From the NCBI GenBank assembly GCA_019187405.1, contig JABAQZ010000007.1, positions 62,001 to 126,000 of the forward strand: DNA of 64,000 bases, given 5' to 3'. Below the pieces are notes generated by a model that saw nothing but the letters and a program-made list of their open reading frames with translations, did no database searches and was not told the origin of the DNA. Shown here one piece after another: positions 8,595 through 23,932 of this stretch (position 1 is its first letter; each line of letters opens with the position of its first letter). This stretch comes from Ignavibacteria bacterium (lineage in GTDB: Bacteria; Bacteroidota; Ignavibacteria; Tepidaquicellales; Tepidaquicellaceae). The position numbers and the translations under genes were made by a program.

Positions 8595-9245
8595 TTATGG
8601 TCTGATGCTTGTTACAAAATTCGCCGCATTATTGTCAACATAAGCCATATCCAATCCATCTACAAAATTGTCACCGTCAATGTCGGTTGCAACATATCCT
8701 TGATAAAAAAATTAAACGTCATTATCGACCAAACTGAAATCAGCAGCGTCAATGATACTGTCCTGATTTACATCGCCGCTGTAAAAACACCACTTTCCGC
8801 TTTTGTATTTTAAATTATTGCCAAAAGCCTGTGTCAGAAAAGTAGTAAAATTATAAGTGTTTGGCTGACCTGAATTTAACTGCTGAACATTCTTTGTCCA
8901 TGTCTCAATTGAATTTCTGTGCTTCACAGTAATATAATAATAAATGCCTCCGTTAGCATTGAAAAAATTGGCAATACCGAATCCATTAGAGTTGAGTCTG
9001 AATTTGCTCGAATCGATTCTTCCATAAGGAGATAATGAACCTCTTAAGATTACATTTACCGTATCGTCTCTCATGTCAGTACCGTCCCATAATCCTTCAG
9101 TTAATGCCTTCAGTTCGAGTGACACAATTCCGTTTCCCCAAAAATTATTTTTTGTAGTATCAATTAATTTGTAAATAAGAGTATCCCGAAGCGTCGAGCT
9201 TCCTCCCATACTTGCTATTACTTTAAATTCTTTTTCACTTATGCT
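8595..9245 (-). pseudogene. C-terminal remnant of a secreted protein with dockerin-like tail, nonsense-mutated
   Basis: The minus strand encodes a fragment homologous to the last third of the subtilase gene at 11055: a LWDGTDMRDDTVNVILRGS strand region, then YITVKHRNSIETW, TQAFGNN, and a first Ca-binding-like repeat SGDVNQDSIIDAAD. An in-frame TAA at 8712-8714 follows DNDV; reading past it, in the same frame, recovers the second repeat (GYVATDIDGDNFVDGLD, then DNNAANFV and a final SIRP) up to a stop at 8595. The fragment has no upstream catalytic part: an in-frame TAG at 9246-9248 closes it. It is therefore a decayed tail of a lost exported protein. An ATG at 9209 could still give a 165-residue product, but I see no signal peptide. 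Confidence 0.75.
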
Positions 9246-9249
9246 CTAA

Positions 9250-9507
9250 TATGAACTCGGATATTTGGATTCTGCTGAATCACTACTGGTTTCTTACAGA
9301 CAGTATCTTAATCGAAACAACGGCTTTATCGGAATGTACGGCGAGTGGTATGATAATTTTCTTAAGACTTACTCAAATCTTCTCAAATTAGACAAGCACA
9401 GCAAAGAATCTGTCAGAAAATTCATGGATAATACCGACAATACGGATAAAATTTTATTTAAATACTGGTTTCTACAGAAAGCTGACGAGCTGATTAATGG
9501 AATCTGA
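9250..9507 (+). pseudogene. Orphan C-terminal-like protein fragment
   Basis: An 85-codon open stretch between stops with normal-looking residue composition (aromatics, leucines and charged residues: YRQYLNRNNGFIGMYGEW, FLKTYSNLLKLDKHS). It has no ATG at its head, only a TTG at 9265, and no recognizable family. Its position next to a truncated gene on the opposite strand suggests a leftover 3' end of a gene deleted by the same rearrangement. It could instead be a chance open frame. Confidence 0.3.
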
Positions 9508-9744
9508 AATTTTATGAATTCTTTTTTTTGCTAACTTACGTTAACTAAATCTCTATTATCACTTCTCTAAATCTATTCTAAAGAATCACTCGCATTTTAT
9601 AAATTCCTGTTTCAATAAATCAACTGCTGATTTAAATGAAAATTAGAATTGTTTGAAAGATGAAAAACAAATTTATAATTTTCTGATTTTTTAAATAGCA
9701 GTTACAAATTTGTATATTTACTTAGAAAATATTTATAAAAAAAA

Positions 9745-10227
9745 ACTTCTGTGAACAAAAGTTCAAATTCCCCCTATCAAAGGAACCTGTGTCCAAAACA
9801 ATGGACAGTGATTCCAAAACAATGGACAGTGAAAAGAATTCAGAGAGCAGTGTTATTAATTCAGACTGAAGTGAAAAAAATTCAGAGAGCCGGAGCAATG
9901 AATAAAAGTTCAGTATAACTGAATCAAAGTTCAGTGAAAAAAATTCAGTGCAAAGTGAAAACATTTCAGAGCCGGGTGATATTTATTCAGAGTGATGTGA
10001 ATAAAATTCAGAGAGCGGGTAGAGTGAAACATAGATCAGTGAAATTATTTCGAAGCAATGTGATAAAATTTCAGTGTCCGGTAAATAATATGCAAAGCTC
10101 GATGCAGATAATTCAAAGCTAAATGAAAAATTTTCACTGAACGGTGAAAATATTTCAGAGAGCAGGAAGAGTGATTCAGAGTTTTATGAGACTTTTTCGA
10201 AGCAATGTGAAAGAATTTCAATGTCCT
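9745..10227. repeat. Degenerate tandem array on an exact 21-bp lattice (about 23 units)
   Basis: Units beginning GTGA (or ATGA/CTGA), then an A-rich stretch and TTCAG, recur at 9787, 9808, 9829, 9850, 9871, 9955, 9976, 9997, 10060, 10081, 10102, 10123, 10144 and 10207, all separated by multiples of 21. Other units (9751, 9898, 9919, 10024, 10171) sit exactly 6 bases off the lattice, so spacings of 27 and 15 cancel back to 42 or 63. Individual units are only about 50-75% alike. Read on the plus strand in the GTG frame the units give a 7-residue pattern V-K-x-(I/F)-Q-x-x, but in-frame stops interrupt it. Nothing else in the stretch looks genic. Confidence 0.85.
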
Positions 10228-10394
10228 AATAACTTTCCGTCCTGGTTGAGTCAACAGCATTTAAACAACTTCAAATTTCTTTGTCTGTCTGAGCAGGGAA
10301 TCAGCATGAAAATTATTAGGTTGCAATTTCTTTGCAATCAAATGAATCCTCGAATACTTCATACTTTTTACTCCTGAATTTTTCAAAGGATTAA

Positions 10395-10562
10395 TCCATT
10401 AAGATAATTATTTACGATGCTCTCGGCAAAGAAGTGAATGTTCTTCTTAACCAAAAACTTCAGCCGGGGAAATATGAAACTGAGTTCAATGCATCGGGTT
10501 ATGCGAGCGGCATGTACTTCTATAAAATGTTTGCTGAAGGATATTTGAAACAAAGAGGATGA
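10395..10562 (+). pseudogene. Relic of a T9SS type-A C-terminal sorting domain
   Basis: This open stretch encodes the hallmark second half of a T9SS sorting tail: IKIIIYDALGKEVNVLLNQ, then LQPGKYETEFNASGYASGMY and FYKMFAEGY, ending KQRG where intact tails carry a lysine-rich strand ending near LK. There is an in-frame TAA immediately upstream and no start codon or passenger protein, so it is the decayed end of a lost cargo gene. It documents that this genome used the T9SS sorting signal. Confidence 0.75.
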
Positions 10563-10570
10563 TATTAATT

Positions 10571-10645
10571 AAATAGCGACAAATGTCCCTATAGTAAATA
10601 GCGTCAAATGTCCCTATAGTAAATAGCGTCAAATGTCCCTATAGT
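10571..10645. repeat. Three tandem 25-bp repeats
   Basis: Three contiguous copies of a 25-bp unit start at 10571, 10596 and 10621. Each begins AAATAGCG and ends with ATGTCCCTATAGT; the second and third copies are identical and the first differs at one base (A for T at unit position 9). A fourth copy begins (AAATA) and breaks off. There are no spacers, so this is not a CRISPR array. Clustered short repeats of this kind can be the multi-repeat end of an insertion sequence such as the IS21 family, but no transposase is present. Confidence 0.85.
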
Positions 10646-10671
10646 AAATAACCAGATTTAATATATCGATC

Positions 10672-10705
10672 AATAAAGGATTCCTAAAAACCGGAATCCT
10701 TTATT
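10672..10705. terminator. Perfect 13-bp hairpin, possible bidirectional terminator
   Basis: The arm AATAAAGGATTCC and its exact complement flank an 8-base loop (TAAAAACC). The stem is long and perfect, but the following sequence is only moderately T-rich (TTATTATTTA). It could end transcription from the left remnants or be part of a mobile-element end. Confidence 0.6.
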
Positions 10706-10777
10706 ATTTACATAAAGGTGGTTAGGAAGCTTTTTTAGCTGTTGATGTTTAGTGAATTTGTCAGCTACAATAACGGT

Positions 10778-10867
10778 GTTGTTTGTGAACGAGTTTTATG
10801 CAGGCAAACGAACTTCACCAACAACAATTCTTATTCCTATCCCTTTGTTGTTTGTGACATAAGTTTA
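10778..10867. repeat. Imperfect inverted repeat plus a direct copy of its left arm
   Basis: GTTGTTTGTGAA at 10778-10789 pairs with TTCACCAACAAC at 10814-10825 with one mismatch in 12. A direct copy of the left arm, starting GTTGTTTGTGA and again followed by an AGTTT, begins at about 10847. No coding capacity is seen. The arrangement resembles a decayed small mobile-element end. The rest of 10706-11054 is AT-rich and should contain the promoter of the protease gene, but I cannot point to a specific one. Confidence 0.45.
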
Positions 10868-11054
10868 ACTGCAAATTACTTTAATTATTTTATCTTAACT
10901 TATCAATGCTGTTAAACTCAATATACATCAACAACGGCAAAGCAAGACTTACAACTGCAAATAGACTCCCGAATTATTAAATGCAATTTTGATTATTTTG
11001 ATTTTGTGTTTATAATAAATTATTTTGAATCCTCAATAATTTAAATTTCGAATT

Positions 11055-22237: not shown

Positions 22238-23143
22238 TTGGAAAATTATAATTTAAATTATTTAAAAGATTTAGAATCCGAATCTATTTTTGTAATAAGA
22301 GAAGTGGCAGCGCAGTTTGACAGACCCGGACTGCTATTCTCGGGTGGTAAAGATTCAATAATCCTTACACATCTTGCAATGAAGGCATTTCACCCCGCAA
22401 AAATCCCTTTTCCGCTGATACACATCGATACCGGACACAACTTTCCGGAAACTCTGGTTTATAGAGACAATCTTATAAACAAACTCGGCGTAAAACTAAT
22501 CGTTGGATATGTCCAGGAATCAATTGATAAAGGCAGAGTAAAGGAAGAAACCGGATACAACGCCAGCAGAAACATGCTCCAGACTGTAACTCTTCTCGAT
22601 ACTTTGGATGAATATAAAATTGAAGCGGCAATGGGCGGCGCAAGACGCGATGAAGAAAAAGCCAGAGCAAAGGAAAGATTCTTTTCTCACAGGGATGAAT
22701 TTGGACAGTGGGATCCGAAAAATCAGAGACCAGAACTGTGGAATTTATTTAACGGCAAAAAAAATCCGGGAGAGCATTTCAGAGTGTTTCCAATAAGCAA
22801 CTGGACTGAAATGGACGTCTGGAATTACATTTACATGGAAAAAATAGAAATGCCGGTATTGTATTTCACTCACAAAAGAGAATGCATACGAAGAAACGGT
22901 ACCATACTTGCTCATTCCGAATATCTGAATCTACGTGAATCCGAAAAACCGGAAATACTTCAGGTAAGATTTAGAACCATCGGAGACATGACATGCACAG
23001 GAGCTGTAATTTCAGAAGCAAATTCGCTTGAAGACATAATAAAAGAAGTTTCCGTTTCAAGACAAACTGAAAGAGGCACAAGAGCCGATGATAAAAGATC
23101 TGATACAGCTATGGAGGACAGAAAGAAGGAAGGGTACTTTTAA
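22238..23143 (+). CDS. cysD: Sulfate adenylyltransferase subunit 2
   Basis: CysD is the catalytic subunit of ATP sulfurylase, forming APS from sulfate and ATP together with the GTPase CysN. The PP-loop FSGGKDS lies at 34-40, followed by HIDTGHNFPET, GGARRDEEKARAKER and the C-terminal SRQTERGTRADDK region with EDRKKEGYF at the end. All 301 residues expected for the family are present. The start is a TTG immediately after the cysC stop. Its usual partner cysN is displaced 789 bp downstream by an inserted repeat-flanked gene. Confidence 0.96.
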   Translation: MENYNLNYLKDLESESIFVIREVAAQFDRPGLLFSGGKDSIILTHLAMKAFHPAKIPFPLIHIDTGHNFPETLVYRDNLINKLGVKLIVGYVQESIDKGRVKEETGYNASRNMLQTVTLLDTLDEYKIEAAMGGARRDEEKARAKERFFSHRDEFGQWDPKNQRPELWNLFNGKKNPGEHFRVFPISNWTEMDVWNYIYMEKIEMPVLYFTHKRECIRRNGTILAHSEYLNLRESEKPEILQVRFRTIGDMTCTGAVISEANSLEDIIKEVSVSRQTERGTRADDKRSDTAMEDRKKEGYF

Positions 23144-23144
23144 T

Positions 23145-23333
23145 AGTTAACAGTTAGGAGTTAACAGTTAGGAGTTAACTGTTAACTGTTAACTGTTAAC
23201 TGTTAGGAGTTAACTGTTTACTGTTTACTGTTTACTGTTTACTGTTTACTGTTAACTGTTTACTGTTAACTGTTAACTGTTTACTGTTAACTGTTAACTG
23301 TTTACTGTTAACTGTTAACTATTAGGAGTTAAC
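23145..23333. repeat. Left heptanucleotide array: 27 in-phase 7-bp units
   Basis: The array starts one base after the cysD stop codon region and contains 27 consecutive 7-bp units with no indel: AGTTAAC, AGTTAGG, TGTTAAC, TGTTTAC and one TATTAGG. TGTTAAC and TGTTTAC make up most of it. The first five units alternate AGTTAAC and AGTTAGG, and the AGG variants recur near the middle and at the end. It is followed by about 100 AT-rich bases before the four-helix-bundle gene. Confidence 0.95.
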
Positions 23334-23432
23334 AAATAGCGTTTAACATTTAGTAATTTTTTTAAGAGAGACAAAGTTAAAGTTGGTAATATATTTTAGT
23401 AAATATAAATATGAAATAGATAAAAATATTAT

Positions 23433-23793: not shown

Positions 23794-23926
23794 ATTAACA
23801 ATTAACTATTAACTATTAACTACTAACTACTAACTACTAACTATTAACTATTAACTATTAACTACTAACTACTAACTATTAACTATTAACTATTAACTAT
23901 TAACTACTAACTACTAACTATTAACT
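23794..23926. repeat. Right heptanucleotide array: 19 in-phase 7-bp units
   Basis: Nineteen consecutive 7-bp units with no indel, beginning with one ATTAACA and otherwise only ATTAACT and ACTAACT. ATTAACT differs by one base from GTTAACT, the same-strand rotation of the main left-array unit, so the two arrays are related in direct orientation. The array ends six bases before the cysN start codon. Confidence 0.95.
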
Positions 23927-23932
23927 ATATAA

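Follow-up and report, generated by a model that had tools for sequence, protein, structure and literature searches.

A degenerate tandem array in exact 21-bp register in an Ignavibacteria genome, and its relatives in five genera

The window, that is, the whole stretch of DNA analysed here, comprises 64,000 nt (positions 62,001-126,000 of contig JABAQZ010000007.1) of the genome of an Ignavibacteria bacterium (GCA_019187405.1; G000 in our coding). At window positions 9745-10227, on the plus strand, it carries a degenerate 21-bp tandem array, detected by autocorrelation, matrix scan and profile alignment, that sits in a long gap; upstream of it lie a DUF3943 gene and one that is weakly outer-membrane-like, and downstream of it a subtilase gene. 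The frames around the array are short, as are the ORFs within it; no tRNA was found on the nearby stretch L005, and Rfam gave no matches in the window at gathering thresholds. A stretch at 10400-10560 that resembles a type IX secretion C-terminal domain and a minus-strand fragment at 8712-9209 with a GDVNQDSIIDAADF motif are both, we presume, gene remnants, and they suggest that the neighbourhood is decayed. At 10570-10650, Tandem Repeats Finder (TRF) called a near-perfect 25-bp repeat of TAAATAGCGTCAAATGTCCCTATAG, in three full copies and a partial one; from its likeness to IS21-type ends, an insertion sequence that has since been lost may have had its binding-site end here.

Autocorrelation of 9745-10227 at lag 21 was 0.554, as compared with a mean of 0.284 for dinucleotide shuffles (z 12.9), a value reached by none of 500 shuffles. 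Lags 42, 63, 84, 105 and 126 were also raised, with the top at 126 (0.566), and among lags 3-129 none outside the multiples of 21 rose above z +3. A scan with a 21-bp weight matrix placed 20 successive units, from 9808 to 10227, in a single phase without shift. The strict 21-base grid and the peak above shuffled sequence anticipated in the preliminary description were thus borne out; its count of about 23 units is about right, 20-21 being placeable with confidence, and the subset that it had found offset by exactly 6 bases corresponds to 4 of the 20 units, in which the core is displaced by +6 (two adjacent units, at 9892 and 9913, covering 9892-9933, and those at 10018 and 10165). An origin from a heptamer (3 x 7) was discarded, as lags 7 and 14 are not elevated; true 7-bp arrays (GTTAACT, ATTAACT) were called by TRF elsewhere in the window, at 23140-23334 and 23794-23928. 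The peak at lag 126 corresponds to a repeat of six units called by TRF at 9828-10076, and three consecutive higher-order copies can be delimited (9829-9954, 9955-10080 and 10081-10206, plus strand) that differ pairwise at 37-59 positions per 126. The array head (9751-9828, plus strand) is homologous to that of a paralogue on contig C35; it includes two near-identical units (TRF 9792-9832), and its part at 9751-9807, which fits the unit poorly, was assigned to the array by this homology. With head-to-tail units of constant length, repeated beyond chance, the array is a minisatellite in the bacterial sense (units of 10-100 bp).

A blastn search of the whole genome with the window array identified a single further array of this kind, at C35:9206-9800 (minus), which has the same head and 68% identity over 475 bp and lies ca. 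0.5 kb upstream of a tRNA cluster and the tRNA-Tyr gene belonging to it. When both arrays are aligned, 126 of 450 columns carry a substitution, the gaps consist of two of 1 bp and a cluster netting one unit, and identity amounts to 68-72% overall. A profile based on the sequence of these two arrays alone (R1) also matched loci on contigs C15, C5 and C7 of the same genome and in genome G022, and the arrays so matched proved to be 21-bp lattices as well. R1 and two profiles built from those further arrays (R2, R3) were used to search 44 genomes of the order; matches were found in G000 and G022 with R1, in G000, G001, G021, G022 and G028 with R2, and in G000 and G016 with R3. Arrays were present in 6 of the 44 genomes and 5 of the 19 genera; all six belong to the bacterial family from which the window comes, represented by 29 of the genomes searched, and the 15 from the sister family yielded no array. 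The arrays of G001, G016, G021, G022 and G028 that were printed or profiled are all 21-bp lattices; in G021 only the array on C67 was counted, those on C12, C57 and C16 being seen by autocorrelation only (C12 and C57 contain masked stretches), and the lattice counts likewise exclude an uninspected match at G022:C44. No strong 21-bp arrays appeared in 400 kb of G006 and G013, and two blastn matches in relatives (L007, L008) were dismissed as chance, showing no lattice on inspection. Related arrays, on whose existence the preliminary description had made its proposal depend, therefore occur both in the same genome and in others. We found no description of this family in the open-licence papers searched. 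The arrays are a real, recurring variant of the bacterial minisatellite, unusual in the exactness of their register, in polarity and, for some genomes, in an anchor at the flank.

Wraparound profile alignment of the window array (450 bp, 21.4 units) opened no gaps although gaps were permitted, and counted 148 mismatches to the array's own consensus, so that 67% of the bases agree with it. The 13 family arrays together gave 18 gap events against 2055 mismatches, and direct comparisons of C5 with C15 (467 bp, 85 mismatches) and of C7 with C15 (469 bp, 98 mismatches) required no gaps. Six control minisatellites of the same genome gave 188 gap events against 928 mismatches, or 179 against 856 without L116, for which the unit was badly chosen. 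Two 22-bp controls (86/204 and 77/309, jointly 163/513) and a 29-bp control (16/287) account for most of the gaps; a 61-bp control, with a poorly specified unit, gave 9/72, and two 16-bp controls (0/26 and 0/30) had too few changes to tell. The difference between family and controls is large with respect to the 22-bp arrays and about sixfold with respect to the 29-bp array, and it is given here as a ratio because mismatches shared via duplication are not independent, which precludes an exact probability. That spacing is better conserved than sequence, as claimed from the window alone, holds and recurs in arrays of other genera. Drift in unit length can be seen elsewhere in the genome in two long arrays with a 22-bp CGCAGATT-bearing unit that varies between 21 and 23 bp, one of 2.4 kb (G000:C1:109956-112387, L119) and one of 2.8 kb (G000:C8:16571-19375, L180).

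It is possible, although we would put it well short of an even chance, that the window array is an ordinary neutral minisatellite that was never coding, originated by slippage and made of drifting units, and that its register only seems exact since indels are rare and the stretches broken by them go unrecognised. The array has no clear present coding signal, and minisatellites of many different periods abound in its own genome, as seen in a repeat scan that covered 1.67 Mb of the 3.78 Mb. A degenerate intergenic array found at the same place in three species of Marinifilum (L031, L070, L076), a 21-bp lattice like that of the window with ATTCAG units between two genes, speaks in the same sense: variation in it is no lower than in its flanks (27 of 377 columns, as compared with 14 of 290), and an indel of exactly 42 bp has occurred in it, which suggests that 21-bp lattices extend beyond the window family and that their sequence is not strongly conserved. 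Against a neutral origin stand the scarcity of gaps in the family relative to the variable 22-bp and 29-bp minisatellites of the same genome, and the absence of any shift across window units that differ from each other at about half of their positions. The positions of the unit also change at unequal rates in the window (P 0.003), a value to be read in the light of the units having been chosen by phase, and four of them re-phased, which favours conserved positions.

An exact spacing of 21 bp, two helical turns, would also be expected if a protein bound each unit on one face of the DNA, with the spacing under selection and the bases loosely constrained, as contemplated in the preliminary description. 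The window core, TGAA-N5-TTCA, does show dyad symmetry (P 0.0165), with arms that rank among the positions of the unit that change least. The dyad is, however, not significant in the other arrays of the genome (P 0.09-0.48) nor in G022, AT content shows no 10.5-bp phasing (combined P 0.998), the displacement of 6 bases in four units would turn the core by about half a turn, and there is no candidate protein. A nucleoprotein site of this kind is thus unlikely, and curved DNA was ruled out for lack of second-harmonic AT phasing. Loci with 21-bp spacing in other phyla look palindromic, but they were fetched with the pattern GTGA...TTCA, which itself favours palindromes; since in the arrays found without this pattern the dyad was significant in the window alone, the idea of a palindromic unit as the defining feature was dropped. 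Of 90 stretches so fetched, the lattice was printed for 17 and covariation was run on 22, many of the rest having little 21-bp periodicity. In four of them, L079, L024, L038 and L039, all from other organisms, the units switch sequence while dyad symmetry is kept on one lattice (covariation z 3.4-3.8); this differs from the window family, which they resemble in the 21-bp lattice alone, and they may constitute a separate kind of element.

Identity between neighbouring units declines along the array, from uniform to degenerate, in 7 of the 12 arrays analysed in this respect, a set without C35 (Spearman p < 0.02). When arrays are oriented by the strand on which the unit reads ...TTCAG or ...TGCAA (here the heptad strand), the uniform end is the 3' end in six of these seven (C15, C277, C220, C306, G001 and G021); the array of G016, located within a gene, is polarised oppositely, with its uniform end at 5'. 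The window array has no significant polarity (rho -0.24, p 0.33). The 3' flanks of three G022 arrays are 91-95% identical over 43-51 bp and those of C5 and C7 are 77% identical over 119 bp, with no comparable similarity at the opposite flank of these arrays; the window and C35 have no flank in common with other arrays. Searches of the 44 genomes with these anchors gave strong matches beside arrays only, three in G022 and two in G000, the remaining matches having E values of 3e-5 or worse and lengths of 19-50 bases.

CRISPR arrays have repeats of constant length, a young end beside a conserved flank and a degenerate far end. It could be that the family is a spacerless polar element of a comparable kind, in which units of exactly 21 bp are added beside a conserved anchor by a process dedicated to this, and the array would be a time-ordered record with its register enforced independently of sequence and coding. 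Such a reading is compatible with the uniform end lying on the same side in six of the seven polar arrays, with flanks that are shared there and not strongly matched elsewhere, and with a register that outlives the sequence, but we consider it very unlikely. The analogy concerns polarity alone: CRISPR arrays have spacers between their repeats, while the units of the family are contiguous and spacerless, and the window array consists of contiguous degenerate units instead of near-identical repeats with unique spacers. About 1.1 kb from the C7 array, G000:C7:135631-139962 (L178:15631-19962) holds ca. 65 repeats of ca. 65 bp, with varying stretches between constant ones, and by eye looks like a CRISPR array.

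The 21-bp unit is also seven codons long, and the best forward heptad frame of the window array contains three in-frame stops, which interrupt any heptad gene. Stops are not significantly depleted in any frame with respect to column-shuffled arrays (3 seen, 5.1 expected, P 0.16), and the differences between the window and C35, whose copy is itself interrupted by stops and 1-bp deletions, are spread evenly over codon positions (42/150, 38/151 and 46/149). These results support, for the window copy, the earlier view of a non-coding or decayed state. They also make it highly improbable that a heptad-repeat gene is still translated there, in spite of two plus-strand open stretches in the same heptad frame, without frameshift, in the ORF list (the longest, 62 codons plus TAA, at 9934-10122, presumably a piece of an earlier reading frame, and one of 77 codons at 10144-10377 that leaves the array into unique sequence) and of the differences among the three 126-bp copies, 51/36/63 over codon positions 1/2/3, which come from three pairs that are not independent. 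The translated 62-aa stretch matched neither Pfam nor plasmid sequences, and its single-sequence fold, the structural prediction that the preliminary description had proposed, is a low-confidence helix (pLDDT 62) that decides nothing. Tandem RNA hairpins, suggested by a folding of the window array better than that of dinucleotide shuffles (z -3.57), are scarcely credible and were rejected, since against column-permuted arrays that keep the lattice this folding is ordinary (z -1.56, 4 of 40 as good; other strand -1.48, 2 of 40), as is that of six other arrays save for the plus strand of C15 (1 of 40).

A related heptad consensus is visible in most arrays of the five genera: RAVKIIQ in the window, SSEQVIQ in C5 and C15, KRMKVPQ in G001, RRLNELQ in C277 and C306, and SIVNVIQ in C130. 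When the consensus units of ten arrays are aligned on the CAR codon, they differ by 0.40, 0.32 and 0.58 at codon positions 1, 2 and 3, with a third-position excess of P 0.025 and a second-position deficit of P 0.076 (column permutation); when units are compared inside each array, position 3 varies most in only 5 arrays of 12. The number of heptad-frame stops is 3 in the window, 1 in C5, 9 in C7, 0 in C15, 18 in C277, 10 in C220, 6 in C306, 3 in C130, 0 in G001, 7 in G021, 2 in G028 and 2 in G016, and in C7 and C277 they are present in some of the youngest units. The heptad frame cannot, therefore, be the present keeper of the register. In C15 and in G001, one of the many frames tested is poorer in stops than expected (P 0.001 and 0.013), and the G016 array is read, in a different frame, within an ORF of 319 codons in which unique sequence flanks it on either side. 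Family DNA is thus able to form part of a coding frame, which the window copy most likely does not do at present. Pfam matches to the C5 and C15 frames were weak, all under cut-offs, and were set aside as they look like compositional noise. Judged by their sequences, common descent of the arrays from heptad-coding DNA is plausible, and the former coding array put forward in the preliminary description stands to that extent: the shared frame, the third-position excess and the pattern of the 126-bp copies speak for it, and the stops in the youngest C7 and C277 units against it.

REP elements adjoin their RAYT genes, and in this genome matches to Y1-type transposases (PF01797), at C1:70036, C6:98370 and C10:26685, adjoin arrays with units of 44-66 bp, some of them visibly hairpin-forming (G000:C1:64135-65654 and 69458-69928, L117; C6:98986-99736, L169; C10:24691-26564, L187). 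No PF01797 match was found on the contigs of the window array or C35, and a REP/RAYT link was set aside for them. As far as the portions of the literature considered here go, the closest published kind to the window family is BrickBuilt, whose 23-nt minisatellite forms part of a MITE in Porphyromonas gingivalis (PMC4596501). Both are intergenic tandem arrays of imperfect units of ca. 20 nt found at multiple loci per genome, at least five in the case of the window's genome (window, C35, C5, C7 and C15), and the conserved segment that flanks the repeats in BrickBuilt (PMC4596501) may have a counterpart in our family in the flank shared at one end in C5/C7 and in G022, though not in the window and C35. 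The family differs in having units of 21 instead of 23 bp that are far more divergent and almost free of indels, the values in the part of the BrickBuilt account considered being 0-11% mismatches and 0-6% indels within elements; that part makes no mention of array polarity (PMC4596501). No convincing pair of inverted-repeat ends, as would be expected of a BrickBuilt-like element, brackets the window array in 9200-11000. In the parts considered of a survey of prokaryotic satellites by Subirana and Messeguer (2019), lengths that are multiples of 3 are described as common and taken as a sign of coding, and some satellite families as dispersed, transposition of non-coding satellites being called rare (PMC6749651). 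The window family is like the surveyed satellites in forming short tandem arrays and, differently from most of them on that account, appears to show non-coding transposition; arrays as degenerate as that of the window might be missed by the survey, which, from those parts, required internal regularity (PMC6749651).

The explanation that we favour, with about an even chance of being correct, is that the window array represents an old copy, untranslated now, from a 21-bp minisatellite family that is dispersed and belongs to its own bacterial family. Tandem duplication would add new units near the uniform end, older units would drift by substitution with the 21-bp register kept, and the array would occasionally be copied to a new locus together with its flanking anchor, one such event having probably given rise to the window and C35 copies. 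With less certainty, the register may be exact as a consequence of descent from seven-codon DNA coding for a heptad-repeat protein, coding that may persist in some genomes and that the window copy would since have lost through its three stops. No function is supported for the array in the window, and our best guess is that it is a decaying copy.

The usual reading of bacterial minisatellites is that they arise by slippage or encode protein repeats. A family that spans several genera and keeps an exact 21-bp register despite ca. 50% divergence among units would allow a clear-cut test of what keeps such a lattice together. Moreover, its apparent growth at one end, next to a short anchor in some genomes, with a coding frame in one genome and many stops in others, would inform on the birth and death of repeat genes.
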